This document shows, in pieces, positions 3,508 to 31,275 of a stretch of 64,000 bases of DNA. Origin of the DNA: Parabacteroides distasonis ATCC 8503 (GTDB lineage Bacteria > Bacteroidota > Bacteroidia > Bacteroidales > Tannerellaceae); NCBI RefSeq assembly GCF_000012845.1, contig NC_009615.1:3908501-3972500 (forward strand), written 5' to 3'. The first letter of the stretch is position 1. Each line of letters opens with the position of its first letter. The notes beneath the pieces are model-generated. The model saw only the letters and a program-made list of their open reading frames with translations. It did no database searches and was not told the DNA's origin. A program made the position numbers and the translations under genes.

Positions 3508-4687
3508 CCTGTTTAGTATAATCTATATGTAAATTTTCAGATACAGTATATCCCCCAATAAAGAAACCGAGAAAACACATTAACTCCGGTCGGGAAATTG
3601 CAGCCTCAAGCGAGAAGCCAGTAATAAGAAATATCAAGGTACACATGCTCCAAGGATTCCTTGAAAAAATACCCCTCAACGGCTTTAAATACTGTGCGAC
3701 AATAAATACAATTCCCAACAATCCGCAATTTGCCAAGATTTCCATAAGACCGTTGTGTATATATATGGCATATCCTGCTCCATTTCCCCATAACGGAGAA
3801 CGGATAAAGCTATCCATGGCAAAGTTGATTCGGTCTACTCTGGTTTGAGATGAATGGTCTGTAATCGTCATAGCGGTAGTGTTGGAGAATATATCAAACC
3901 TGTCGAGTATAAACATCAATAAATCACTACCAGATGCTAATATCGTCAATACCGCAATTATCAAGACACTTTTATATTGTCGTTCTTTGTATTCTACATA
4001 TACAAAGTACAATAAAGATAATATAATGGCGATAAACGACATTCTCTTCAGCGTCACGAAAGCTGCGTATGAGAAAATCACAATCAGTAAATAAACTACT
4101 TTCTTATTAATGTTTGCACGCGGTAATAGGCAAATAGTAATGACAGACAATGTCTGTGTCAAATTAGAATATGATATTCCATAAATACGGGATTGATTAA
4201 TGATATCAGAATCCGTTGTTGACAATAAAACAACACCGTCATAAAAACCCCAAAAAGCCAGTATTGTAGTGAATGAATAAATGAATGATACTGTGAGTAT
4301 GCATCGTGTAAATCTTTGAAGATCCTCGTATGTTTTTATATAAAGAGGAGTCAAGGTTGCTATGGCCATTACGTCCCACACTGGGCCAATCCATGGAAAA
4401 GCTCGCAATATATCAGTTGACAAAAGACCAATAAGAAACGAAACTATAACTGCCAACAAATACAGATACCACCCTTTTAATGCCGACAGAGACTTGTATG
4501 TTTCTGTTACAAGCATGATTCCGAACATGGGCATCGCAGGCATTATGTCTCCTAAAACAGGAACTTTAAGTACTCGAATAAATGACAACACGATTGCTGT
4601 CAAGAAATAGACTTTCCGTCCTTTATCCGTCTGGCCACACCACAAATAAATTGCAAGTAGCGAAATGATGAAGAGTAGTTTAATCAT
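3470..4687 (-). CDS. Wzy-like polysaccharide polymerase / O-antigen ligase family membrane protein
   Basis: A 405-residue, very hydrophobic protein with about ten predicted membrane segments and a long periplasmic loop in its C-terminal half (about residues 255-315, with VDRINFAMDSFIRSPLWGNG). Loops of this kind with an R...G-W/L-G-NG pattern are characteristic of the Wzy_C/O-antigen ligase superfamily. It is the only polymerase candidate in the operon, so it is the likely Wzy that joins repeat units in the periplasm after Wzx export. The 3' end overlaps the next gene. Sequence alone cannot separate polymerase from ligase; the surrounding Wzx/Wza/Wzc set supports polymerase. Confidence 0.8.
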   Translation of the reverse strand: MIKLLFIISLLAIYLWCGQTDKGRKVYFLTAIVLSFIRVLKVPVLGDIMPAMPMFGIMLVTETYKSLSALKGWYLYLLAVIVSFLIGLLSTDILRAFPWIGPVWDVMAIATLTPLYIKTYEDLQRFTRCILTVSFIYSFTTILAFWGFYDGVVLLSTTDSDIINQSRIYGISYSNLTQTLSVITICLLPRANINKKVVYLLIVIFSYAAFVTLKRMSFIAIILSLLYFVYVEYKERQYKSVLIIAVLTILASGSDLLMFILDRFDIFSNTTAMTITDHSSQTRVDRINFAMDSFIRSPLWGNGAGYAIYIHNGLMEILANCGLLGIVFIVAQYLKPLRGIFSRNPWSMCTLIFLITGFSLEAAISRPELMCFLGFFIGGYTVSENLHIDYTKQDEQQIKCDYSDI

Positions 4688-4706
4688 TCTGCAAATCTAT
4701 CTGTAT

Positions 4707-5834
4707 TCAGCACCCATTGAAGTTGCTTTGCAAAAGCAAATAATTCTCAACCATTCTTTTTATCGTGAAATGTTTGAGATATTCCTCGGTATCGGAATAA
4801 TCGAAAGAGATTTCCTTTGTCAGAATTTTGTCAATGGCTTTCCTAATTTCACCGGCATCAACGGGAACAGTCAATCCGTATTTGTCTGACATGATTTCGG
4901 GCAAACCACCACTATTTGTGGCAATTATTGGTTGTTTGGCTGCTATCGCCTCCAATGCCACAATACCAAAAGTCTCTCTCCTTGAAGGTATTATATTAAT
5001 CTCACTATTTTGTGCATATTGAACAATGTCATCGGGCACCAACCGGCCTATGAGTACTGCACTATCCTTCAATCCAAGTTCCTCAATCATTCGCTGTAGA
5101 TACTCCCGTTGTGTTCCTTCTCCCGCTATCAGGAGTTTCAGTCCATGAGACTTCTTGCAGTTGGCAAATGCTTGCAAAAGCAAATTAAATCCTTTGATTT
5201 CCTCCAATCTGCCCCATGCGAATAGGTAAGGGCTGCATCCCGGCATGGTTGGACATGGTTTGCGGTCTTTGAATCTCGTCAAGTCCACTCCATTATAAAC
5301 CGTATGCACATTCTTGCATCCGAATACCCTTTGAACACAATGAGCCAAATAGCCCGAACAAGCAGTTACTTGAGCCGACTGTGTCAATAATTTTTTCTGA
5401 GCCTTGTATTGCACTGATTCTTTCGAATAGCCTTCGTCGTAGCGCAGCACATCGTGCCCGTGGAAGCAAGTAATTATCTTGAACTTGAATATGCGGTGTA
5501 ACGCGGTTATGCAAGAAGATTGCGATAAGGGAAAATGGACATATACATAATCAGGTCTTCTGAACAGAAAGAAGAGGAAAAGCATAATGAAAGAAACTCC
5601 AAACATGAGCATATTTTTTATATGCTTGTCCGCATTGGCAAATGGCAATCTTATTACTGGAACTTGCGATATTCTCTCATAAATTCTAAGATACCTAGGA
5701 TACAAATTCGTTATGACTATAGTACGGTATCCCCGCCTTCTACACCCTTCGGCAAATTGCGAAGCCACAGTCTGTACGCCTCCAAGAACAGGTTTATAGG
5801 AGTTGGCAAAAATATAGATAGTTTTCGATTTCAT
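4707..5834 (-). CDS. Family 4 glycosyltransferase
   Basis: Retaining GT-B transferase of about 375 residues. The N-terminal domain has GGVQTVASQFAEGCRRRGY, and the C-terminal domain has the E-x7-E signature (ETFGIVALE) followed by TNSGGLPEIM. The start chosen is the ATG at 5834-5832, whose ATGA overlaps the TGA of the upstream gene (5833-5831), a classic coupled junction. A longer reading frame from 5879 would only add residues from within the upstream gene. A hydrophobic stretch near residues 75-90 may contact the membrane. Confidence 0.88.
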   Translation of the reverse strand: MKSKTIYIFANSYKPVLGGVQTVASQFAEGCRRRGYRTIVITNLYPRYLRIYERISQVPVIRLPFANADKHIKNMLMFGVSFIMLFLFFLFRRPDYVYVHFPLSQSSCITALHRIFKFKIITCFHGHDVLRYDEGYSKESVQYKAQKKLLTQSAQVTACSGYLAHCVQRVFGCKNVHTVYNGVDLTRFKDRKPCPTMPGCSPYLFAWGRLEEIKGFNLLLQAFANCKKSHGLKLLIAGEGTQREYLQRMIEELGLKDSAVLIGRLVPDDIVQYAQNSEINIIPSRRETFGIVALEAIAAKQPIIATNSGGLPEIMSDKYGLTVPVDAGEIRKAIDKILTKEISFDYSDTEEYLKHFTIKRMVENYLLLQSNFNGC

Positions 5835-20661: not shown

Positions 20662-21876
20662 TTATAAGGATTTGAGTATGATGTCGTTTGCCTTGTCCAC
20701 TTGTGAGGTGTCCAGCGAGGCGAGGTAGATTCTGGTCGTGTTTTCCGAATCATGTCCCATCGCCTCGCTGATGGTTGCCAGCGGCACATTCTTGCTTCTG
20801 GCAATACTCGCCCATGCATGTCGGGCTACATACATGGTGAGCGGCATACCGAGCCCGAGCCGTTTCCCGAGTTCCTTGAGTTTTCCGTTGATGAAATGCG
20901 CTGCGCTCCTGTACTGCCGCACGGCATCCTTGGCCGTATCCCTGATGACCGGAAAAAGGTAGGGGCTGTCATTGTGGCCATACCTGTCCAGGATCTCCTG
21001 CATGGGCTTCTCCCATTTAATGGACAGACGCCGGCCGGTCTTCCGCCTGCGGTAGGTCAGCACGCCGCTCTTCAGATCAGCCTTTTTCAGGTAGGCGATG
21101 TCGACGAACGACATGCCCCGGGTATAAAAGCTCAGCATGAACATGTCCCTGGCGTATTCCATGCCCGGGGAAAGACGCAGGTCCAGGTCACGTATCATGC
21201 GGACCGCTTTCAATGGAACAGCACGTTTTACGGTCTTGTCTATTCCGGTGTAGACATGCTTGAAAGGGCTGCGCTGTACCGTCAGTTCCCTGTCCACCGC
21301 ACGGTTGTAGACGGCACGCAGGTTCCGCATGTAATAGGAGGTGCTGTTCGGACATATCCCCTTGTCCTTCAGCCATGCCTCGTATTCCAGCATGAGGGTG
21401 GAGCCGATATCCTCCAGCGGGATGTCGCCGTCCCTGCCCCGGAAGTGCGTGAAGCTGTTCAGTACGGTGGTGTACCTCTCGGCGGTGCGCTTCTTGCCGA
21501 CACGCTCCAGTTCCTCCACGAGCCTCTTTCCGAAGGCCATGAAATTATGGCTGTCCTCAGGGGGCGGGTTGTGAAAAAGTTCGACAACCCTGCCGGCGGG
21601 ATAGGTACCGCCGGAACGTTCCAGTCCGGCAATGATACTTTCCAGACGGCGGATGTCTTTTTCCATCCGCTCCTTTAACGCAAGCAGGAGGCTTCTTCTG
21701 GCATCACCGGATACCGGCAGTATGATTTCCGACATGCGTCCGTCCCATTCCGAAGGGAACAGCCTGTAGCCGGTGTTTATCTGGCGCGCCACCCTTCCGT
21801 GGATGATCTGGAAATAGAGCGTCCCCTCCCTGCCTTCCACGGACGAGGACCTGAATTTGGTTTTGATTGTTGCCAT
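20662..21876 (-). CDS. Tyrosine-type site-specific DNA invertase
   Basis: Tyrosine recombinase of 404 residues, very like the Bacteroidales DNA invertase group found beside invertible promoters. An N-terminal arm-binding domain (TIKTKFRSSSVEGREGTLYF) is followed by a SAM-like core-binding domain (about 110-210) and the catalytic domain. Catalytic residues are R253 (FYTRGMSFVDIAYLKK), K279, R352 (YVARHAWAS), H375 (MGHDSENTTR) and Y384 nucleophile. The box II histidine is a tyrosine (Y349). Start is the ATG at 21876; longer frames run into the upstream gene. It ends 56 bp from cassette 2, so it is the best candidate for switching both cassettes. It is also the last gene of a mobilisation operon (8-bp gap). 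Confidence 0.9.
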   Translation of the reverse strand: MATIKTKFRSSSVEGREGTLYFQIIHGRVARQINTGYRLFPSEWDGRMSEIILPVSGDARRSLLLALKERMEKDIRRLESIIAGLERSGGTYPAGRVVELFHNPPPEDSHNFMAFGKRLVEELERVGKKRTAERYTTVLNSFTHFRGRDGDIPLEDIGSTLMLEYEAWLKDKGICPNSTSYYMRNLRAVYNRAVDRELTVQRSPFKHVYTGIDKTVKRAVPLKAVRMIRDLDLRLSPGMEYARDMFMLSFYTRGMSFVDIAYLKKADLKSGVLTYRRRKTGRRLSIKWEKPMQEILDRYGHNDSPYLFPVIRDTAKDAVRQYRSAAHFINGKLKELGKRLGLGMPLTMYVARHAWASIARSKNVPLATISEAMGHDSENTTRIYLASLDTSQVDKANDIILKSL

Positions 21877-21883
21877 AGTGCAG

Positions 21884-22645
21884 TCATTTTGAATTAGGAT
21901 TGTCCACTTGCTTCCTGATTTCCTGTGCCTCCCTGAACAGCCGATGCGCCAGACTGTCCTTGTAGGCCGCCATTTCATGATTACGGATGCGGTTCCTGAC
22001 CGAGTCCTCAAAAGCGGTCACCAGCCTTTCCACACGCCGGATCTTTTCCTCGTCCCGCTCGATGGTGAAATGCTTCTCCAGGAAGGCGATGTCGGGATCA
22101 TCCCCCGGCAGGCAGATCCTGATGGCACGGTATTTCAAATCGGCATCCTTCAAAAGCCGGTTCGTGCGGTACTGGTTACAGTTGGTCCAGACGGAAACGA
22201 CCAGTGCCAGGATCAGTGCTGAAGCTGTCGTTACCACCGCCTTGGATGCGCTTTCCAGACGGTAGGTCACCAGTTTGTGTACCGGTTCCTTTTTCAACAG
22301 GACCATTCTCTCATCCAGCCGTCTTACCGTTTCCTTTACCGCCTGGCTGTCCTGCCGCAGGCTGTCCCTTGTCTTTTCCATTTCTCCGGCAAACGTTTCG
22401 GCAAACAACGGCCTGCCTTCCGACAACCGGGCGGTATGGCTACGTACCGCTGCTATTTCCGAACTGTTTTTCTCCACTGCGGATTGCAGGCGTTCCAGAC
22501 GGATTTTCAGTTCCGCAATCCCTTCAGGGGAATTGGTCCGGTTTTCAACTGCGGGGCTTGTGCCTTCCACGGGCAGCGTCTCCACTTTCTTCTCGATCCT
22601 TTCAAGGCATCCGTAGATGCCTTCCAGATAGTTTTCCTGTTTCAT
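21884..22645 (-). CDS. Coiled-coil membrane protein of the mobilisation operon, function unknown
   Basis: A 253-residue protein I cannot assign to a named family. The first 130 residues are charged and heptad-rich (IYGCLERIEKKVETL, LKIRLERLQSAVEKN, VKETVRRLDERMVLLKK), suggesting a coiled coil. One membrane span follows (AVVTTASALILALVVSVW), then a charged C-terminal domain of about 90 residues. Genes of this shape commonly sit next to relaxases in Bacteroidales mobilisable elements. Here it lies 30 bp after the relaxase gene and 7 bp before the invertase gene, so an accessory role in transfer is an inference from position only. Confidence 0.75.
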   Translation of the reverse strand: MKQENYLEGIYGCLERIEKKVETLPVEGTSPAVENRTNSPEGIAELKIRLERLQSAVEKNSSEIAAVRSHTARLSEGRPLFAETFAGEMEKTRDSLRQDSQAVKETVRRLDERMVLLKKEPVHKLVTYRLESASKAVVTTASALILALVVSVWTNCNQYRTNRLLKDADLKYRAIRICLPGDDPDIAFLEKHFTIERDEEKIRRVERLVTAFEDSVRNRIRNHEMAAYKDSLAHRLFREAQEIRKQVDNPNSK

Positions 22646-22675
22646 CTTTCAAAGTTTTTTCGTTATACATATGGT

Positions 22676-23596
22676 TCACAAACTCCTTCCTTTCCTGCGC
22701 TTCTTCTTTCTCCGCAGGCGTTCCGCCTCTTTCTCGTCCTCCGTCGGTGCCACCGACGGCATGAACACGCCACCCGTACCGGTGATTTCGACCAGGTTAT
22801 CAATAATAGAACCATGACTTTGTTCATGGTACGGTTGCTTTTGGGAAACGTCATTTTCCTGGGACGTGACATGGTTATGCTCCAATGCCGCATCCAGCCT
22901 TGACCAGCTGAAACTGCGGTCAATCCCACTTCCCTTGAATGACAGACCGTCCTTTATAAAGCGGATGCCCTGCACTTCATTAGTGTTTCCCTTGTACTTG
23001 AATTCCATTTCCACGCCCATTTTTAAGAGCCTATTTTGAAATTCTTTCCATGTATCTGCACTCCTCAAAGCTTCCTTAACCGCACGATATATCTCGTATT
23101 TCACCCTCTCGGAAGCGTGCAGCTTTTCCGTTTTAACGGACTGTTTGCCTTCGGAATAGGTGAGTGAATACTTGTCCTTGAGCATTTTTGTCACCCTCTC
23201 GTTACGCCTGAAATCGTTGCTGTCGGAAATCACCTTCCCATCGAAGTCCACCCGGTTGAAGACGATGTGGCAGTGCGGGTTGTCCGTCCCGTGATGCCTC
23301 ACCACGATGAACTGCGTGTTCCGTATCCCCATCAGCTCCAGGTATTCCTCCGCCAGACTTGCCATGAACGCGTCGGTCAGCCTCGGCGTGTCCTCCGGCT
23401 TGAAGCTGAGCGCGATGTGCCCCACCGGTTTCGTCACGTCCGGATTCAGCAGGCATTGCCACCGGAAACTTCGCGCCATCTCTTCTGCCGTTCCCAGCAG
23501 CACGCCTTCCGAGGCGATGATTTTCGCATCGTCCTTCTGCGTCACGTAACGTATACAGCCGCCGAACGAGCGGCCTTTCCTGATCTTTCCTATCAT
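22676..23596 (-). CDS. Relaxase / mobilisation nuclease (MobP-type)
   Basis: DNA-nicking relaxase of 306 residues expected to cut oriT and pilot the strand during transfer driven by a helper conjugative element. The N-terminus has MIGKIRKGRSFGGCIRYVTQKD with tyrosine Y17 as a candidate nucleophile. The metal-binding triad is in VRHHGTDNPHCHIVFNRV (H-x7-HxH). The C-terminus is basic (RRKKKRRKGRSL). It overlaps closely with mobC (4-bp gap) in the same transcription unit. No type IV coupling protein or secretion genes are present, so the element would be mobilisable and not self-transmissible. Confidence 0.93.
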   Translation of the reverse strand: MIGKIRKGRSFGGCIRYVTQKDDAKIIASEGVLLGTAEEMARSFRWQCLLNPDVTKPVGHIALSFKPEDTPRLTDAFMASLAEEYLELMGIRNTQFIVVRHHGTDNPHCHIVFNRVDFDGKVISDSNDFRRNERVTKMLKDKYSLTYSEGKQSVKTEKLHASERVKYEIYRAVKEALRSADTWKEFQNRLLKMGVEMEFKYKGNTNEVQGIRFIKDGLSFKGSGIDRSFSWSRLDAALEHNHVTSQENDVSQKQPYHEQSHGSIIDNLVEITGTGGVFMPSVAPTEDEKEAERLRRKKKRRKGRSL

Positions 23597-23600
23597 GAGG

Positions 23601-24005
23601 CTATCCTCCTTTAGGCCTGTAATCGTCCATGATCCGCTTCAGCTTTCCCAGCAGCCCGTCTATCAGCAGCCTTGTCCTGTAAAAGCCTGCCTGGTGCGAG
23701 AGCTTTGTCAGCTGGTTCAGGTTGTTCGCCATTCCCGCCAGGCTGCGCAGCAGCGCATTCTCTTCAGGCGTATGCCTTGCCGTCACGGTGGCCGCCAGTG
23801 CCGCCTCCCTGATATAGACCGCCAGACTCCGGCCGGACTTCCCTGCCCTGAACCTGAGAGCCTCGTAGCTGACGGGGGAGAACTTCACTGTCACTCCCCT
23901 GGTCAGCTTCCGTGTCCTGCCCAGTGCCGGACGGCCGCGTTTTTTCTTCATCCCATTCATATCCTTTGTCATATGTTTTTTCTTTTTCGTCCGTACTTCT
24001 TTCAT
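23601..24005 (-). CDS. mobC: MobC-like relaxosome protein
   Basis: Small basic DNA-binding accessory protein of the relaxosome. The N-terminal part is lysine-rich (KKKRGRPALGRTRKLTRG), then a ribbon-helix-helix-like segment (VTVKFSPVSYEALRFRAGKSG then RSLAVYIREAAL), then LRSLAGMANNLNQLTKLSHQ, the MobC family motif. Start uncertain: ATG at 24005 chosen; ATGs at 23972, 23960 and 23951 are also possible. Upstream of 24005 the frame runs through the hairpin at 24061-24108 and looks non-coding (proline- and glycine-rich, no family match). It precedes the relaxase gene by 4 bp. Confidence 0.88.
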   Translation of the reverse strand: MKEVRTKKKKHMTKDMNGMKKKRGRPALGRTRKLTRGVTVKFSPVSYEALRFRAGKSGRSLAVYIREAALAATVTARHTPEENALLRSLAGMANNLNQLTKLSHQAGFYRTRLLIDGLLGKLKRIMDDYRPKGG

Positions 24006-24060
24006 TCCAGAATCTGCGACCGGCGGGAGCGGATTTGCCCTCCCTGCAACCGCCGGGCGC

Positions 24061-24108
24061 GGGGGAGCAAGGGTTTTCGGGAATCCGGAAACATACCCTT
24101 GCTCCCCC
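24061..24108. repeat. Large hairpin between the DUF3408 and mobC genes, candidate oriT
   Basis: GGGGGAGCAAGGGT (24061-24074) pairs exactly with 24095-24108. The 20-nt loop contains a second near-palindrome (TTTCGGGAATCCGGAAA, one mismatch), so almost the whole 48 nt can fold. It lies immediately upstream of mobC and the relaxase, where oriT is usual. A transcription attenuator is the main alternative; there is no T-run directly after either arm. Confidence 0.5.
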
Positions 24109-24201
24109 CACAGAAAAAATCCCCCCGCATTTTCCACATTGAAGCGGGTACACAGGGGACGGTGCGTATATCGGGTATACTCCACACCCGGTAACAGGTT
24201 G

Positions 24202-24705
24202 TCAGATTTTTCTCCACTGCTCGATGTCCCCACGGTAGGCGGCAAGATGTTCCCTGGCAAGGTTCTCCAGCAGTCCGGAAACGCTCATGCCACGCCCGCC
24301 GAGCCTGCGGACGATGGCGTCCAGTTCGTCCCTCACATCCTCACTGACGAATACCGTCTTACGGTTCCTGATCCTCGGGACGGTGAGGTACGTTTCCCGA
24401 TACTCCTCCAGCGAGGCCCTGCGCTGCCTGCCGCTCGTACTTCTTCTCACGGGGCCTTCCGGTTCCGGCGGGGTGTCCTTTCTTCCCGCCTCCCCGGACA
24501 CCCCCTCCACAACAGTCCCAGATGGAATCATCGGTTCCGTCGCGGAAGCGTCCGTACCGGCGGATTCCCCCGGACCGGGTTCCATCATGAGTCTTTCCCA
24601 CCACTCGTCGTGGCCAAGTCCAGGACTACGGCCGTTCTTTCTGTCTGCGGTTTCGGATGCCGCCGTTTTCTTCCCTTTCGGTTTTTCAGTCGGTTCACTT
24701 TTCAT
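24202..24705 (-). CDS. DUF3408 family mobilisation-associated protein
   Basis: A 167-residue protein with a disordered, charged and Pro/Gly/Ser-rich N-terminal two thirds and a compact C-terminal domain (from about residue 115): TVFVSEDVRDELDAIVRRLG, then GRGMSVSGLLENLAREHL and DIEQWRKI. This C-terminus is the DUF3408 signature, a ribbon-helix-helix-like domain common in Bacteroidales conjugative and mobilisable elements. First gene of the mob operon (DUF3408, mobC, relaxase, coiled-coil protein, invertase). High GC content contrasts with the AT-rich restriction cassette next door. Confidence 0.85.
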   Translation of the reverse strand: MKSEPTEKPKGKKTAASETADRKNGRSPGLGHDEWWERLMMEPGPGESAGTDASATEPMIPSGTVVEGVSGEAGRKDTPPEPEGPVRRSTSGRQRRASLEEYRETYLTVPRIRNRKTVFVSEDVRDELDAIVRRLGGRGMSVSGLLENLAREHLAAYRGDIEQWRKI

Positions 24706-25040
24706 TGTACATGGATTTTAGATGGTTGATACTGTGGGCACGGTCTACCCGTTTGCCCGGTTGTCGGAAGCAAATAAAACGATAATAACAAGTGCTGTGA
24801 AACGGACGGGTCCGATTGGCGGGATTTGCCGTGTTATTCATATTGTTGGATCGGTCTGACGGTGATGACTTCACAAATATACGTGCCGGAAATTTCCCAC
24901 TCTTCGGGAACGGATCTGAACGTCTGTCCGCTAAAAGCAAATGAATGTTAAAATCAGATTTGTAAGAGTTTCCGTAATGACATATAGCACATCTTCCCAA
25001 TGGTTCTTATTTTTGTATAAATCAATAAAAAGTACATCTT

Positions 25041-25364
25041 ATGAAAAGAGAAAGACTCACTTTGATTCCGATTGAATATTTATTTATTGTTTTTGGAAGC
25101 ACTCAAAAAGGAACTAGCCAAAAATCCAGGAACAACAACATTGACGCATTCTGTAAGAGGCGTGCAATAATTATGATTTTTTCTACCTATGGCTCAGAAC
25201 CATCGAGGAGAGTTTCTACAAGTTACGCAGTGAAGCGTGCCCCCTATACTCCAAATTGTCGAAACATCTTGTATTTAAACAAACTTTTACTTTTGAAAGC
25301 CGGACTGAATGAGAATGTCCATTTACGTTTTTCAGACTTTTGCAAAAGACACCATGTGGAATAG
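25041..25364 (+). CDS. Hypothetical protein, coding status doubtful
   Basis: A 107-codon frame starting MKRERLTLIPIEYLFIVFGS. It is rich in Lys/Arg and Asn. The only organised segment is a hydrophobic patch in the first 20 residues. No domain is recognised. It stands alone on the plus strand between the mob operon and the restriction operon. Its AT-rich codon use fits the restriction cassette better than the mob genes. It may be a decayed gene. Confidence 0.3.
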   Translation: MKRERLTLIPIEYLFIVFGSTQKGTSQKSRNNNIDAFCKRRAIIMIFSTYGSEPSRRVSTSYAVKRAPYTPNCRNILYLNKLLLLKAGLNENVHLRFSDFCKRHHVE

Positions 25365-25796
25365 ATATGGGAGAGTATTTGTAGTTAATTATCTTCGGTA
25401 TAGTAAAATATGGATACAAAACAATCACTGTAATAAACAGGGTGAAAAAGCCGTTTTTGGGACAAGCAAAGAGGGAAAGAAAAAGGTTGGTTTAAGATGG
25501 ATGTTTAATGAAAAATTAACAAAAAACAGGAGCTTTTATACTTTGGCGATGGTCGCTCGGAATGAGGTCAAAACCACAAAAGAGTTGTCGGGAATTATTT
25601 GTAATTATTGACAATCAATAAATTAAATATAGACAGGATCCAAACAAGGTACAAACGGACTAAAATTTATCCACTATGAGTTTATATTCTCCTTATCAGA
25701 ACAACCGTAAAACTTTCAGTTTATCTTATACAAATTTCTATGATGAATTATTATCTTTTTTTTCTATTCTAATAGAAAAATTTTCAGCATTTAGTT

Positions 25797-25826
25797 TTTC
25801 CATGTCACAATACTTATATATATTTG
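25797..25826 (+). promoter_or_regulatory. Promoter of the restriction-modification operon
   Basis: TTTC at 25797-25800 (TTTG in the consensus), an 18-nt spacer and a perfect -7 element TATATTTG at 25819-25826. The predicted start, about seven bases later, falls at the left end of the palindrome 25835-25848, just before the XRE gene start at 25854. The very short leader suits a tightly autoregulated operon. Confidence 0.65.
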
Positions 25827-25834
25827 CACGAAAT

Positions 25835-25848
25835 CTAAAATGTTTTAG
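25835..25848. promoter_or_regulatory. Perfect palindrome between promoter and XRE gene, candidate operator
   Basis: CTAAAA, TG, TTTTAG: six-base arms with a two-base centre, covering the predicted transcription start and ending 5 bp before the XRE start codon. Its position suggests that a dimer of the XRE protein represses its own operon here. It does not resemble the classical C-box of PvuII-type control proteins. Confidence 0.5.
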
Positions 25849-25853
25849 TTGAT

Positions 25854-26066
25854 ATGGCAAATCTAAACAGATTAAAAGTTGTACTCGTAGAACAACAAAA
25901 AACAGGGAAATGGTTAGCTGAGCAATTAGGTAAATCTAATTGCACAGTAAGCAAATGGTGCAGTAATTCTATACAACCAGATTTGCAGACCTTAGAAAAA
26001 ATATCAAAGCTTTTAGGTGTGGACATACGAGAACTGATAACGCCCACAAATCAGGAGAATAGGTAA
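25854..26066 (+). CDS. XRE-family regulator (possible control protein of the R-M operon)
   Basis: A 70-residue single-domain helix-turn-helix protein. TGKWLAEQLGKSNCTVSKWC is the helix-turn-helix, followed by QPDLQTLEKISKLLGVDIRELI, the usual end of the Cro/C1 fold. The size and position (first gene, 11 bp before the methyltransferase gene) are those of restriction-modification control (C) proteins. A delayed restriction onset through autoregulation at the palindrome upstream is an inference. The operon continues without terminators through the following four genes. Confidence 0.85.
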   Translation: MANLNRLKVVLVEQQKTGKWLAEQLGKSNCTVSKWCSNSIQPDLQTLEKISKLLGVDIRELITPTNQENR

Positions 26067-26077
26067 TAAATACCATT

Positions 26078-27025
26078 ATGCCGAATAAATCTCATTTTAA
26101 TAATGGATTAAGGACATTAGTTCAACAGGCCAGAGATGGCATAGAGCATAGCTCTGCTGTTCATGTCCGTAATTTCGATAAAACATTTCATGCAGTGTAC
26201 ATTCAAGACGCTGTTAAATTTTTAAAGACCGTACCTGATTCCTCGGTTCAGTTGGTTCTGATAGATCCTCCGTACAATTTGGAGCTAGATTATTGGGATT
26301 CCTTCCCTAACTATCTTGATTGGGCAAAACAGTGGATTGATGAAATATACCGCATAATGTCAGATAACGGTAATTGCGTAATTTTTGGTGGCTTTCAATT
26401 TCAAGATTTAAAACAAGGCGACCTGTTAGAAATTCTATATTATATCAGACATAATACCAATTTGAGACTAATAAATCTCATAATATGGTATTATAAAAAT
26501 GGGATGAGTGCACATAGATATTTTGCCAACAGGCATGAAGAAGCGATTTGGCTATCTAAGACTAAAAAATATTATTTTGACTTAGATTCAGTTCGAGTTC
26601 CGTATAGTGAGGAAGCCAAAAAAGCCGCATTAAAGGATAAAAGACTTAGACCTGAAAATATTGAAAAGGGTAAAAATCCAACAAATGTTTGGGAAATAGG
26701 ACGATTAAATGGCAATTCTACGGAACGAGTGGGGCATCCTACTCAGAAACCTACAGAAATAATTAGACGACTGGTTAAGGCTTTATCTTATGAGGGTTCT
26801 CTTGTTTTGGATTTTTTTGCTGGCTCAGGGACCACAGGGAGGGTATGTATTGAAGAAAATCGCCATTCAATTATGGTGGATTCTGATAATTCATTGAAAA
26901 GATATTTTGAAATGCACCGAAAGAAAATGTCTGGAACCTCTTTTAAACCATACGAAATTTGCGAAAATATAGAAATAGAGAAATTTCTTGAAAAAGTAAA
27001 CAAAGAGGAAACCTACACTAAATAG
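26078..27025 (+). CDS. M.RsrI-like adenine-N6 DNA methyltransferase (beta class)
   Basis: AdoMet-dependent methyltransferase of 315 residues. The catalytic motif comes first (LVLIDPPYNLELDYW, DPPY at 63-66) and the AdoMet motif is late (LDFFAGSGTTGRV, 246-251), so it is a beta-class enzyme. It closely resembles my recollection of M.RsrI, including the N-terminal N-K/R-S-H-x-N-x-G pattern, NGMSAHRYFANRHEE, KNPTNVWEIGRLNGNS and ERVGHPTQKP. RsrI is an isoschizomer of EcoRI, so the expected target is the adenine of GAATTC. It lies directly before the EcoRI-like nuclease gene (22-bp gap), the gene order of rsrI. Confidence 0.9.
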   Translation: MPNKSHFNNGLRTLVQQARDGIEHSSAVHVRNFDKTFHAVYIQDAVKFLKTVPDSSVQLVLIDPPYNLELDYWDSFPNYLDWAKQWIDEIYRIMSDNGNCVIFGGFQFQDLKQGDLLEILYYIRHNTNLRLINLIIWYYKNGMSAHRYFANRHEEAIWLSKTKKYYFDLDSVRVPYSEEAKKAALKDKRLRPENIEKGKNPTNVWEIGRLNGNSTERVGHPTQKPTEIIRRLVKALSYEGSLVLDFFAGSGTTGRVCIEENRHSIMVDSDNSLKRYFEMHRKKMSGTSFKPYEICENIEIEKFLEKVNKEETYTK

Positions 27026-27047
27026 AATAATATTTAACAATAATAAT

Positions 27048-27881
27048 ATGGCAAAGAAAAATCAATCAACAAGATTAACTCTTCAGCACAAAGAAAGTCA
27101 TGGCGTTGAAGGTATCTTCGGCGAAGAAGCCAAATTGCATGATTTGACAGTTGGGGAAATTTCTCATCATGTCATTGCTAAACTAACAGAAGATTATCCT
27201 CAGTTGACATTTCGATATAGACAAAGTATAGAAAAAAAAGAAATCAATGAGGCATTACAAAAGGTTGACCCAAATCTTGGACAAACCTTATTTGTAGAAA
27301 ATGCAAGCATCATTCCTGATGGTGGAATAATAGAGGTAAAAGACGATAACGAAAATTGGAGAGTTGTATTAGTGTCAGAAGCTAAACATCAGGGAAAGGA
27401 TATAGAAAATATTAGAAAAGGTGAGCTGGTCGGAAAGAATAAAGACCAAGATTTAATGGCAGCTGGAAATGCGATAGAACGTTCTCACAAGAATATTTCC
27501 GAAATTGCCAACTTTATGTTAGCGGAATCTCATTTCCCATATGTTTTGTTTCTTGAAGGTTCTAATTTTTTGACTGAGACTATAAAAGTAACAAGACCTG
27601 ACGGACGAGTAGTTACTCTTGAATATAATTCAGGGATGCTTAACAGATTAGACAGATTAACGGCTGCAAATTATGGAATGCCTATCAATACCAATCTTTG
27701 TAAGAATATGTTTGTCAAGCATAAGGATAAAACAATAATGCTCCAAGCGACATCTATTTATACTCAAGGAGATGGAGGTAGTTGGAATAAAAGTAAGATG
27801 TTTGATATAATGCTTGAAATATCAAAAACATCCTTACAAATATTGGGTAGTGATTTATTCAAGCAATTAACAAAGAAATAG
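27048..27881 (+). CDS. EcoRI-like type II restriction endonuclease
   Basis: 277 residues, the same length as R.EcoRI as I recall it, and clearly a close homologue over its whole length. The PD-(D/E)xK site is at exactly the EcoRI positions: D91 in IIPDGGIIEV, E111 and K113 in SEAKHQGKD. The recognition segment DQDLMAAGNAIERSHKN puts M137, N141 and R145 where EcoRI has its base-contacting residues. Predicted cut: G^AATTC as a homodimer. Its gene is flanked by two methyltransferase genes (22 and 20 bp away). GAATTC sites exist in this window (for example 17514 and 61896), so host protection is required. Confidence 0.95.
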   Translation: MAKKNQSTRLTLQHKESHGVEGIFGEEAKLHDLTVGEISHHVIAKLTEDYPQLTFRYRQSIEKKEINEALQKVDPNLGQTLFVENASIIPDGGIIEVKDDNENWRVVLVSEAKHQGKDIENIRKGELVGKNKDQDLMAAGNAIERSHKNISEIANFMLAESHFPYVLFLEGSNFLTETIKVTRPDGRVVTLEYNSGMLNRLDRLTAANYGMPINTNLCKNMFVKHKDKTIMLQATSIYTQGDGGSWNKSKMFDIMLEISKTSLQILGSDLFKQLTKK

Positions 27882-27901
27882 ACATTTCAGAGGAGTTTGT
27901 T

Positions 27902-28867
27902 ATGGCGAGAAATGCGACAAATGGTTTATTACAAAAGGCTAAGAAATCTAAAAGTGATGAGTTCTATACGCAACTTTGTGATATAGAACGGGAACTCCAG
28001 TATTACCAAGGTCAATTTGAAGATAAAATTGTATATTGTAATTGCGACGACCCTAGGGTTAGTAATTTTTTTAAATATTTTGCAGCAAATTTCCATAACC
28101 TAGGATTAAAGAAACTAATTGCATCCTGTTACATAGAATCCGACAATAGTATATTTAATGAACAGAATTTTAAAACAGGATTCTATTGTGAGTATTTTGG
28201 CAAGAGTAATCAAAATATTGAGATTATAAATTTTAAAGGTAATGGTGACTTTAGAAGTGCTGAAAGTATTGAATTACTAAAACAATCTGATATTGTTGTC
28301 ACTAATCCACCATTTTCATTATTCAGAGAATTTGTCTCTCAAATAATTAAATACAATAAAAAGTTTTTAGTAATTGGAAATGTTAATGCCATTACATATA
28401 AAGATATATTTGAGTTAATCCAAAGGAATAAAGCTTGGTTAGGTGTAAATCTAGGCAGAGGGATTTCCGGTTTTATTGTTCCTGACCATTATGAGCGTTA
28501 TGGCACAGAAGTAAGTGTTAATAGTGATGGACAAACAATAATTGCAACTAACGGTTGTCTGTGGTTGACAAATTTAGAATTGTCACAACGCCATAAAGAT
28601 ATTGTATTGACAAAAGAATATAAAGGAAATGAGGACAAGTATCCACATTTTGATAATTGCGATGGTATAAATGTTAATAGAACGCAAGATATACCTAAGG
28701 ATTATCATGGCTTAATGGGGGTGCCTATAACTTTTCTACACAAATATAATCCTGAACAGTTCAAAATTGTAAGATTTCGAAAAGGGGATGATGGCAAAGA
28801 TTTGCGGATAAATGGCAAATGTCCTTATTTCAGAATACTCGTTAAAAACAAAAAGATTGATGCATAA
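27902..28867 (+). CDS. M.EcoRI-like adenine-N6 DNA methyltransferase
   Basis: 321 residues, collinear with M.EcoRI from its first residues (MARNATN, then KAKKSKSDEFYTQ) to its end (NGKCPYFRILVKN). The catalytic motif is VVTNPPFSLF (NPPF 135-138), preceded by CNCDDPRVSNFFKYFA and GDFRSAESIELL. Expected product: N6-methyladenine within GAATTC. It follows the nuclease gene by 20 bp, the native ecoRI order. The operon therefore has a second, unrelated GAATTC-type methyltransferase besides the M.RsrI-like one. A central insertion present in M.EcoRI (around residues 90-110) is shorter here. Confidence 0.94.
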   Translation: MARNATNGLLQKAKKSKSDEFYTQLCDIERELQYYQGQFEDKIVYCNCDDPRVSNFFKYFAANFHNLGLKKLIASCYIESDNSIFNEQNFKTGFYCEYFGKSNQNIEIINFKGNGDFRSAESIELLKQSDIVVTNPPFSLFREFVSQIIKYNKKFLVIGNVNAITYKDIFELIQRNKAWLGVNLGRGISGFIVPDHYERYGTEVSVNSDGQTIIATNGCLWLTNLELSQRHKDIVLTKEYKGNEDKYPHFDNCDGINVNRTQDIPKDYHGLMGVPITFLHKYNPEQFKIVRFRKGDDGKDLRINGKCPYFRILVKNKKIDA

Positions 28868-28888
28868 GGTTAAGACATTATTAGATTT

Positions 28889-29902
28889 ATGAAGATTAAA
28901 GATATAGAGGATATAAATTTTCTTATTGATAATTCTGTAGAAGAATCTACTGAATTAGAATATAAACGCTCATTCGCAAAGTCAAATAAAGATTGGAAAA
29001 AAGAACTGGCGAAGGATGTTAGTGCGATGGCAAATTCAAATGGCGGAATAATTGTGTATGGGTTAAAAGAAAAAGAAATATCAAAAGGACATTCCGTTCC
29101 TGAAGATATTTCACCAATACCAACATCAGAGATGACAAAAGACCAATTGTCGCAACTTTTATCTTCAAATATTCAGCCAATTATTGATGGCATAGAGATT
29201 TCCTATATTCCATACAACGAAGAAAATGGTTTTTACATTGTATCTGTTCCTCAAAGTAACACAGCTCACCAAAACAAATTATCTCATATGTATCATAAAC
29301 GGAGAAATGCTACCGTTGATGCAATGGAGGACTATGAAATTAGGGATGTAATGAACAGAAGTAAAACTCCTATTATAGACTTGGACTTTGAGATAATAAA
29401 GACAACAGTAAAAGTTATTACAAAGGATTATTCTTCTCTGTTAAAGTTAGGAAAATTAGAAAATATAAGTACAAGAATTGACTATAGTCTAAAAATTAGG
29501 CCAGTAAACAACGGTCAAATATTAGCTAAATATGTCAACTATTTTGTGTATCTGCCATCATTTATATTATCGGATGAAGAAGAAAGCGATAGTGAGAGTG
29601 ATTACAGTGAAATTTTTGATGATAATACAGTACGGGATGTTGTTGGAATTGATGGGTTTAGGAAACAATATGGTCCAGCTCGTTATGACCCTATATTACC
29701 AGGAATATGTGGATGTTCTAGAACTGTCAGTTTAAGCATTGAAGAAGATATGGACTTTGAAAAATTACCATCAATAAGATATGAAACACATGCAGATAAT
29801 GCCCCTATACGAAAGGGGGCTATTAAGTGGAAAGAGATTAGGGTTATAAATAAGTATGATAAAGAAGTTCATGACCCAATGGCACCGCCATCACTATACT
29901 AG
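28889..29902 (+). CDS. AlbA/Schlafen-type (AlbA_2) domain protein linked to the R-M operon
   Basis: 337 residues. The first 155 residues form an AlbA_2 (Schlafen-type) domain: ESTELEYKRSFAKSN, KELAKDVSAMANSNGGIIVYG, and the closing MYHKRRNATVDAMEDYEIRD. The remaining half has no recognised domain and includes an acidic stretch (DEEESDSESDYSE, about residues 232-244) and a paired-cysteine CGCS. It lies 21 bp after the M.EcoRI-like gene with the same AT-rich composition, so it is probably co-transcribed. AlbA_2 proteins occur as regulators and in defence loci. Whether this one regulates, backs up or merely accompanies the R-M system is unknown. Confidence 0.75.
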   Translation: MKIKDIEDINFLIDNSVEESTELEYKRSFAKSNKDWKKELAKDVSAMANSNGGIIVYGLKEKEISKGHSVPEDISPIPTSEMTKDQLSQLLSSNIQPIIDGIEISYIPYNEENGFYIVSVPQSNTAHQNKLSHMYHKRRNATVDAMEDYEIRDVMNRSKTPIIDLDFEIIKTTVKVITKDYSSLLKLGKLENISTRIDYSLKIRPVNNGQILAKYVNYFVYLPSFILSDEEESDSESDYSEIFDDNTVRDVVGIDGFRKQYGPARYDPILPGICGCSRTVSLSIEEDMDFEKLPSIRYETHADNAPIRKGAIKWKEIRVINKYDKEVHDPMAPPSLY

Positions 29903-30241
29903 AACTAGAAAGAGTGAACTGTATTTAACTTAACGGCTGATATTTTGCTGTTTTTGCCCAATCTTCCAATCATATTTTTCCTTTGCGATATCGCCCACCT
30001 CATAGACTGTGTGGCGATGTCTTATTCTATCAAAAGACTGTCTGCTGTAAGCATCCGATAAAGTACACTATAAAAAATGACTGTATCTCTTTTCAAGTAT
30101 GCAGTCATCTATAGTTCGTTGTATATCTATTCCTTTCTTCCATTTGTGTGGCAACATTTGTAGTAGTTCCTCATAATTTGCTTTCTGCATATATGGCATT
30201 ATTGCTATAACGTCATTCAGTTAAGTGCGTGTATTTACTTT

Positions 30242-31275
30242 AACGTGAGTTCGAAATAAGAATAAATATATTTCACTTATAATTAGAAACATAGCGATAA
30301 AAGTATTAAATTTATAGTGCTGAATTATAACATTTAAACGATTACCACTATGTTTCCAGAGTCTAAAGTTACAGAGATTTATTGTATGGCTGATGATTTT
30401 TGCAAGGAATTTACATTGCAACAGGAAAAATATATGATTAAGGATATGAAGACCATGCATCGTAACAACCCCAACCGTATGAGTGATGCAGAGATTATGG
30501 TTATTCTAATCCTGTTTCACTCCGGTGGTTTCCGTTGTTTCAAGCATTACTACAAGGAGTATGTCTGTAAACATCTGAAACACCTTTTTCCTCGTCAGGT
30601 TTCTTATAACCGTTTTGTGGAACTGGAGAAGGAGGTATTGCTTCCCATGACCATATTCATCAAAAGAGTACTGCTGGGAACTTGTACCGGCATCAGTTTC
30701 GTTGCTTCCACTCCCTTATGTGTATGTCGTAATCAAAGAATCTTGATTCATAAGACATTTGAAGGGCTTGCCGAGCGTGGAAGATGTTCTATGGGATGGT
30801 TCTTCGGATTCAAGCTGCATCTGATAATCAATGACAAAGGAGAGCTCCTCAATTTCATGTTCACGCCTGGAAACGTGGATGACCGGGAACCGTTGAAACA
30901 GGGTAAGTTTCTGGAAAACATCAAAGGAAAACTATGTGCAGACAAGGGATATATAGGTCAGGCTCTGTTTGAAAACCTTTTCCTTAATGGCATACAGCTT
31001 GTTACTAAAGTTAAAAATAATATGAGGAACTCACTGATGAGTATTGCCGACAAGATTTTGCTAAGAAAAAGAGCCTTGATTGAAACGGTCAATGACGAAC
31101 TGAAGAACATCGCACAGATTGAACACTCAAGACATCGTTCATTCAGTAACTTTATAGCCAACTCCTTGTCGGCTATCGCAGCATACTGCTTTTTTGAAAA
31201 GAAGCCCGCCATTGACGTAAAGTTTGTCAATGACGGACAACTTGCTATTTTTTGATTTTATTTCGAACTCACGTT
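30242..31275 (+). mobile_element. IS982-family insertion sequence, 1034 bp
   Basis: Terminal inverted repeats are AACGTGAGTTCGAAATAA (30242-30259) and its exact reverse complement at 31258-31275. Both ends are flanked by the 5-bp direct repeat ACTTT (30237-30241 and 31276-31280), a target duplication. The single transposase gene fills the interior. Removing the IS and one ACTTT restores a continuous IS66 remnant, confirming the boundaries. Confidence 0.9.
30350..31255 (+). CDS. IS982-family transposase, probable catalytic mutant
   Basis: 301 residues. FVASTPLCVCRNQRILIHKT, GWFFGFKLHLIINDKGELLN, FTPGNVDDREPL, CADKGYIGQALF and the C-terminal RALIETVNDELKNI belong to the DDE transposases of the IS982 family. 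The family's first catalytic aspartate sits in FVDSTPLRVC-type motifs; here that residue is alanine (A119, codon GCT, one base from GAT). The later Asp (CADKGY) and Glu (IETVND) are present. The frame is full length, so the copy is intact in structure but is predicted to be inactive by itself. Confidence 0.88.
   Translation: MFPESKVTEIYCMADDFCKEFTLQQEKYMIKDMKTMHRNNPNRMSDAEIMVILILFHSGGFRCFKHYYKEYVCKHLKHLFPRQVSYNRFVELEKEVLLPMTIFIKRVLLGTCTGISFVASTPLCVCRNQRILIHKTFEGLAERGRCSMGWFFGFKLHLIINDKGELLNFMFTPGNVDDREPLKQGKFLENIKGKLCADKGYIGQALFENLFLNGIQLVTKVKNNMRNSLMSIADKILLRKRALIETVNDELKNIAQIEHSRHRSFSNFIANSLSAIAAYCFFEKKPAIDVKFVNDGQLAIF

Follow-up and report, generated by a model that had tools for sequence, protein, structure and literature searches.

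EcoRI and RsrI are the textbook case of homologous nucleases with unrelated methyltransferases. RsrI is paired with an M.RsrI-type enzyme only, and M.EcoRI is usually placed in the gamma class. The two nucleases are 50% identical, and EcoRI consists of two genes, one for a nuclease and one for a methyltransferase (PMC4081073). In EcoRI, the methyltransferase gene comes second, behind that of the nuclease; at least six promoters serve the pair, reverse ones among them, and the methyltransferase gene has a promoter of its own within the nuclease gene (PMC3874152). In solution, M.EcoRI is a monomer and M.RsrI a dimer (PMC5173035). Here, we analyzed a 64,000-nucleotide stretch of the Parabacteroides distasonis ATCC 8503 chromosome (NC_009615.1, positions 3,908,501 to 3,972,500; the window), which carries an EcoRI-type restriction-modification operon at 25854-29902. 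The operon shares the nuclease–methyltransferase order with EcoRI and differs from it by an unrelated M.RsrI-type enzyme and a helix-turn-helix (HTH) gene upstream. From RsrI, it differs by also having an M.EcoRI-type enzyme.

One nuclease gene between two methyltransferase genes

Five co-directional + strand genes make up the operon, in the order HTH, M1, R, M2 and Schlafen/AlbA_2, with gaps of 11, 22, 20 and 21 base pairs (bp). A sequence-only reading of the window had placed the HTH (XRE), M1, R and M2 genes correctly; the fifth gene (28889-29902), inside the same span, was left unnamed.

The nuclease gene R (27048..27881, + strand; 277 amino acids, aa) encodes an EcoRI-family restriction endonuclease. 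Its product matched the Pfam family EcoRI (PF02963, E 6e-156) and EcoRI crystal chains (E 3e-134), and it is 75% identical over 277 aa to the EcoRI of an E. coli plasmid (L085). The catalytic and recognition residues D91, E111, K113, M137, N141, R145 and R200 are kept, the first six at the positions that the sequence-only reading had assigned. From this level of identity, R is predicted to cleave G^AATTC.

M1 (26078..27025, + strand; 315 aa) encodes a predicted M.RsrI-type N6-adenine methyltransferase for GAATTC. It matched N6_N4_Mtase in Pfam (E 3e-55), its best solved relative is M.RsrI (E 3e-98), and it is 53% identical over 281 aa to M.RsrI residues 1-283. The motifs DPPY, NGMSA, NPTNVW and FFAGSG are present. 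Their order is that of the beta class, with the catalytic DPPY (63-66) ahead of the S-adenosylmethionine (AdoMet) motif FFAGSG (246-251), as located earlier. Across 30 rows including M.RsrI and the window M1, 84 positions are invariant (gaps uncounted), among them D63-N67, R147, F149-E155, N200-W205 and E216-H220; DPPY and NPTNVW are kept in all 30. Read by eye against the beta-class dimer-interface motif of PMC5173035, the window M1 (AHRYFANRHEEAIW, YYFDLDSVR, NPTNVW) has A instead of S.

M2 (27902..28867, + strand; 321 aa) encodes an M.EcoRI-family N6-adenine methyltransferase, also with GAATTC as the predicted target. It matched EcoRI_methylase (PF13651, E 4e-134) and is 68% identical over 324 aa to the methyltransferase adjoining the plasmid EcoRI; no solved relative was found by sequence. 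NPPF stands at 135-138 of 321, as previously noted, and is kept in all nine loci with the M1-R-M2 arrangement (triples). M1 and M2 of the window have no significant similarity (29 aa aligned, E 0.2), which agrees with the earlier statement that they are unrelated.

Judged from these comparisons, the gene matches of the operon are not chance. One nuclease flanked by two methyltransferases is present as an arrangement; the common specificity is predicted from homology, and GAATTC methylation in the cell by both M1 and M2 would follow from it. Taken jointly with the gain of methyltransferase genes proposed below, it is likely that the operon is an intact-looking type IIP restriction-modification operon of the EcoRI (GAATTC) type, and that two adenine methyltransferases, non-homologous but alike in predicted specificity, protect R.

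Recurrence and assembly of the triple

Relatives of R were collected by scanning one genome per species in 84,980 species, which yielded 100 relatives; the analysis used the best 80 of them. The scan was seeded by exact stretches of the window R; near relatives are therefore favored, and the window's own or very near genomes are possibly omitted. Arrangements were called by protein matches above 230 bits. The 80 loci comprised 54 R-M2, 8 M1-R-M2, 8 R-M1, 5 M1-R and 5 with R alone. Four of the R-alone loci (L022, L028, L047 and L056) are cut by a contig end within 254 bp of R, with the start of M2 visible in three of them, and the fifth (L057) has a broken M2. Where at least 1.2 kb was available on both sides of R (65 loci), the counts were R-M2 45, M1-R-M2 8, R-M1 6, M1-R 5 and R alone 1. 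A set of 103 loci was formed by adding five of 19 plasmid records with R, one phage record, eight IMG/VR loci, genomes of the order and the window; two short R pieces (L177, L179) were below the score limit and stayed outside. It held 66 R-M2, 9 M1-R-M2, 9 R-M1, 7 M1-R, 6 R alone, 4 M1 alone and 2 M2 alone, so that both orders of M1 and R are common. These counts make the triple uncommon and recurrent. The sequence-only reading had considered that it might already be standard for EcoRI homologues; at 8 of 80 loci, it is not.

None of the nine phage and IMG/VR loci examined (L087-L093, L168, L169) is a triple; 74 of 80 IMG/VR M1 loci, which match M1 over short stretches or fall under about 30% identity at full length, lay outside this examination. 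The Helicobacter phage Pt11509_1 (L087) has EcoRI-type R and M2 genes in pieces at 3986-5443. Four IMG/VR viral contigs (L088, L089, L090 and L092) carry M.RsrI-type methyltransferases 54-69% identical to M1, with no EcoRI-type nuclease within the stretch examined; the M1 of L092 lies near a contig end. These relatives are possibly solitary enzymes.

Six relatives have a further CcrM-like beta-class methyltransferase of 392-397 aa, M1x, between M1 and R (L005:4729-5919, L006:1525-2715, L019:6808-7986, L020:3250-4443, L032:6792-7985 and L038:6789-7979). The best solved relative of the L032 copy is CcrM (E 3e-56). With M2 present as well in five of the six loci, one EcoRI-type nuclease is accompanied there by three methyltransferases. 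M1x is absent from the window operon.

Trees were calculated for M1 (30 rows) and, as quick and careful versions, for R (97 and 54 rows) and M2 (77 and 41 rows). The nine triples fall into three settings in our reading of these trees, with gain and loss counts depending on the root. Bacteroidales contribute the window, L006, L019, L020, L032 and L038; within this group of the M1 tree lie the M1-R loci L005 and L063, which have no adjacent M2. The Flavobacteriaceae triple L025 groups with the R-M2 locus L017 in the M2 tree (95/91) and shares its clade of the R tree with loci that are mostly R-M2. For the Lachnospiraceae triples L072 and L075, the R tree (98) and the M1 tree (95/96) agree in grouping them with M1-R loci. 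These positions suggest that M1 was added ahead of an R-M2 unit in L025, and M2 behind an M1-R unit in L072/L075. The sequence-only reading had given the RsrI order as M then R; the nearest locus to M.RsrI in the M1 tree, L093, has the R-M1 arrangement. L173, from a genome of the window's order, carries R and M2 that the trees show as identical to those of L010, a record labelled Paludibacter.

Approximately unbiased (AU) tests were run on thinned sets, from which R-alone, distant, broken and many further R-M2 rows were dropped and in which all nine triples were kept. A single clade of nine triples was rejected for R (p-AU 2.2e-9) and for M2 (p-AU 1.8e-5), and so was a single clade of the six Bacteroidales triples (R p-AU 2.8e-7, M2 9e-42). 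These p-values overstate the case because the groups were chosen after the quick trees had been seen; even so, the likelihoods differ by a wide margin (205 to 490 units). A single origin of the triples was thus rejected by the tests on both trees.

Loci were then compared as DNA at E 1e-5. Between L038 (M1-M1x-R-M2) and L049 (R-M2), the only similarity is a stretch of 95.7% identity that begins 14 bp ahead of R and runs to roughly where M2 ends. In L025 and L017, only R-M2 is common (84%, from 11 bp before R), as it is in L019 and L024 (82%, from 41 bp before R). L019 and L044 gave a similar pattern, but the sequence available ahead of R in L044 is only 329 bp long. The part common to L072 and L070, and likewise to L072 and L091, is M1-R only. 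The entire M1-R-M2 unit is common to L072 and L075 (82%), and the entire M1-M1x-R-M2 unit to L020 and L032 (95%). Since the similarity in three sister pairs has its left border 11-41 bp ahead of R and its right border close to where M2 ends, methyltransferase genes seem to be gained and lost whole. A search for M2 in five M1-R assemblies was empty in four; the assembly of L005 has only relatives at 44-56% identity, on contigs other than that of L005. M1 and R have not always traveled together either: in L086 (Acinetobacter schindleri plasmid NZ_CP044480.1, 2655-4545), M1 is 74% identical to the window M1, with an adjoining R at only 48%, which suggests separate histories of methyltransferase and nuclease.

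The sequence-only reading had explained the operon as a join of an RsrI-type M-R unit and an EcoRI-type R-M unit through one common nuclease gene. Its observational part held, in that two unrelated, intact-looking methyltransferases near known-GAATTC enzymes flank one EcoRI-type nuclease. The fusion was not adopted, since sliding-window identity gave no clear breakpoint in the R genes of the window, L025 or L072. R of L025 is near R-M2 relatives throughout. R of L072 is nearest to M1-R relatives in most windows, the R-M2 relative L067 being marginally best in windows 406 and 451. The window R matches R-M2 relatives at 76-77% of bases and M1-R relatives at 73-76%; with the two groups about equally similar, the test is weak for this gene. 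Its first ~180 nucleotides are slightly nearer to L005/L006, which we took as noise. The comparisons fit better with a complete unit gaining or losing an entire methyltransferase gene at its edges than with a join through the nuclease.

Why two methyltransferases for one predicted site

We propose that a second, whole methyltransferase gene was gained beside a complete one-methyltransferase unit, repeatedly and by two routes: arrival of M1 ahead of R-M2, or of M2 behind M1-R. Operons with both enzymes could later lose either. Functionally, M1 would be a beta-class dimer and M2 a monomer. M1, the first enzyme gene of the operon, would secure early protection once the element, passed on as a strand by its relaxase, has arrived in the cell, and M2 would maintain routine methylation. 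With relaxases, DNA enters the cell as a single strand. This split is the preferred but weaker, functional step of the explanation. It is drawn by analogy with published systems, as some members of the M1 class act on single strands or prefer hemimethylated DNA. Single strands can be methylated by DpnA and by M.BcnIA (PMC5974420, PMC3573125), and DpnA, of the DpnII system, protects incoming DNA (PMC3573125). Hemimethylated sites are favored by three beta-class enzymes that have a common specificity, and one of the three can also use single-stranded DNA (PMC5974420).

Selection was estimated from ratios of nonsynonymous to synonymous divergence (dN/dS, Nei-Gojobori), with genes read from the first possible start codon and some ends uncertain. 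In L072/L075, dN/dS was 0.077 for M1, 0.059 for R and 0.050 for M2; in L020/L032, it was 0.22, 0.074 and 0.106, respectively. Pairs readable for R and M2 only gave 0.012-0.10 for R and 0.057-0.097 for M2. Both measurable triple pairs are under purifying selection. From the low ratios, both enzymes of the Lachnospiraceae pair have been retained by selection, although one member shows a warning sign.

That sign is one of several points that weigh against the explanation proposed here. In L075 (Blautia), M1 lacks an ATG, GTG or TTG start codon ahead of about codon 15. Together with the change in motif I of the L020 M1 (CFAGSG, with C for the first F of FFAGSG) and its higher dN/dS (0.22), this means that M1 may be decaying in some triples. 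The other departures among the nine triples are NGMSS in L019 and NGISA in L075 for NGMSA; FFSGSG or FFCGSG is found in five R-M1 rows, which are not from triples. Synonymous sites were saturated in four other M1 pairs, so the M1 ratios rest on two pairs. In L020/L032, dS is unequal among the genes (M1x 0.03, R 0.06, M1 0.15, M2 0.45), so this unit is itself a patchwork. Close sisters with and without M1 show the gene to be dispensable on short time scales. A search for M1 at E 1e-40 in eight related R-M2 assemblies found none; these are drafts, and an empty result that lacks a positive genome shows nothing by itself. No M2-family protein was found in either of the other M1-bearing genomes of the order, G189 (L177, L195; M1 relative 72%) and G138 (L194; 64%). 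Both M1 relatives are at contig ends, and the R match of G189 has an internal stop and lies on another contig than M1. Finally, a related EcoRI-like M-R system of Prevotella intermedia showed no detected GAATTC methylation, according to the published report (PMC5608340).

Redundancy during replacement is almost as likely as division of labor. In its full form, this alternative holds that the second methyltransferase is redundant, that either can be lost, and that triples are short-lived, functionless intermediates between R-M2 and M1-R or R-M1. We regard it as a substantial possibility, if short of probable. It would account for the near-identical R-M2 cassette with and without M1 (L038/L049), for L005 and L063 without adjacent M2 inside the Bacteroidales triple group, for the start-less M1 of L075, and for the patchy presence on all trees. 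Short-lived intermediates are harder to reconcile with L072 and L075, which retain the whole triple at a synonymous divergence above 1 with dN/dS of 0.05-0.08 in all three genes, and with the intact motifs of both enzymes in the window and most other triples. At the opposite end, the triple may be a selected, recurring two-guard design in at least three lineages. Labor would be divided between a dimeric M.RsrI-type and a monomeric M.EcoRI-type enzyme, with DNA that is entering, early, single-stranded or hemimethylated on one side and routine maintenance on the other. EcoRI and RsrI, each with a single methyltransferase, would be reduced or alternative states of an exchangeable module set. We put this forward tentatively, as a possibility that is less likely than not.

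Two other accounts are less probable. An extra methyltransferase could be the product of selfish competition, serving as an immunity gene, outside the restriction system proper, that shields the host or element from being killed by a rival GAATTC system or after loss of its own. When a same-site system has been lost, a solitary modification enzyme can attenuate the killing (PMC3874152), and M1 occurs without R, in the stretch examined, on the four viral contigs. The window M1 is co-directional with its neighbors and 11-22 bp from them, and in two locus pairs M1 lies within one conserved stretch with R and M2; we consider this account unlikely. It is very improbable that only one enzyme protects against R while the other, be it M1 or M2, is inactive or now targets a different motif. 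The Prevotella system, published as inactive, would be a precedent. The window M1, in contrast, has all the 84 positions invariant in the 30 rows, and each methyltransferase type is found as the only one of the two adjoining R: M1 in 13 of 80 loci (8 R-M1, 5 M1-R) and M2 in 54 of 80. Each type therefore apparently suffices there. The repeated gain of a whole methyltransferase gene remains our preferred reading of how the triples arose.

Operon surroundings and comparison with known systems

The first gene of the operon (25854..26066, + strand) encodes a 70-aa XRE/Cro-type HTH protein (HTH_3, E 5e-9), a possible C-like regulator, 11 bp before M1. A relative stands directly ahead of M1 in L020 (53% identical over 59 aa), and a 43-aa fragment in L038. 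L025 has a different, 115-aa HTH protein overlapping the M1 start. The genes ahead of M1 are unrelated in L006 and L019 (SIS and T5orf172 domains), and that of L072 is without a Pfam match. By this comparison, the HTH gene is not a constant part of triples. Upstream of it, there are only short, weak repeats, and no operator was assigned. The last gene (28889..29902, + strand), 21 bp after M2, encodes a 337-aa Schlafen/AlbA_2 domain protein (SLFN_AlbA_2, PF04326, E 1e-17). No homologue was found at E 1e-5 in the other R loci examined; weaker relatives occur in 6 of 392 other genomes of the order. The Bacteroides-type promoter pattern, taken from its consensus, was not found in the operon and occurs three times elsewhere in the window (1.7 expected). 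Scans for sigma-70 promoters (27 versus 27.8 expected) and terminators (0 versus 3.2) were at or below chance.

To the left of the operon, 20662..24705 (- strand) encodes an integrase, a MobA/VirD2-type relaxase, a NikA/MobC-like protein and a DUF3408 protein by Pfam. An IS982 transposase gene (30350-31255) and, by Pfam, two HTH_17 proteins lie to the right. The operon is probably carried by the neighboring mobilizable element. It is AT-rich: GC content is 32-35% in the 2-kb windows of 25001-30000 versus 54-55% at 21001-25000. An EcoRI-family nuclease was found in 3 of the 123 genomes searched within the family; in the order, 8 of 393 genomes have such a nuclease, and 3 of 393 have M1 (E 1e-60). 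The window genome is included in each count. The operon is therefore accessory cargo. The window genome, a single contig of 4.81 Mb, has other N6/N4 methyltransferase matches at G000:C1:3570285-3571094, 2516603-2517505 and 3220765-3222006, the last in two pieces with an internal TAA. GAATTC occurs 1089 times in the whole genome, 14 times in the window, about half of the 28.4 expected from dinucleotide shuffles of the window (standard deviation 5.0), and never in the operon.

Single-methyltransferase relatives of this system have been described. LraI of Lactococcus raffinolactis is an EcoRI isoschizomer pair whose one methyltransferase protects from EcoRI (PMC5896346). M.Pin25611FORF1345P of Prevotella intermedia and its nuclease form a Bacteroidales EcoRI-like M-R pair, which differs from the window operon by its single methyltransferase and, in the published report, by GAATTC methylation not being detected (PMC5608340). 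Among the titles and abstract openings listed from the open-licence literature, we did not find a description of two methyltransferases in an EcoRI-family system or of the repeated assembly of such a system. Gain and then loss of a methyltransferase is a possible route to the unrelated partners of EcoRI and RsrI. Operons with both enzymes, together with their single-enzyme sisters, are candidate intermediates for replacing a methyltransferase without killing the cell. They also offer natural material on why a palindromic site would need two guards.

Two same-site methyltransferases beside one nuclease are already known from other type II systems. DpnII and BcnI have this composition, and so does MboI (mboA-mboB-mboC). 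The operon described here differs from DpnII and BcnI in nuclease family and site, and its pairing of methyltransferases seems to have been formed repeatedly, by addition.

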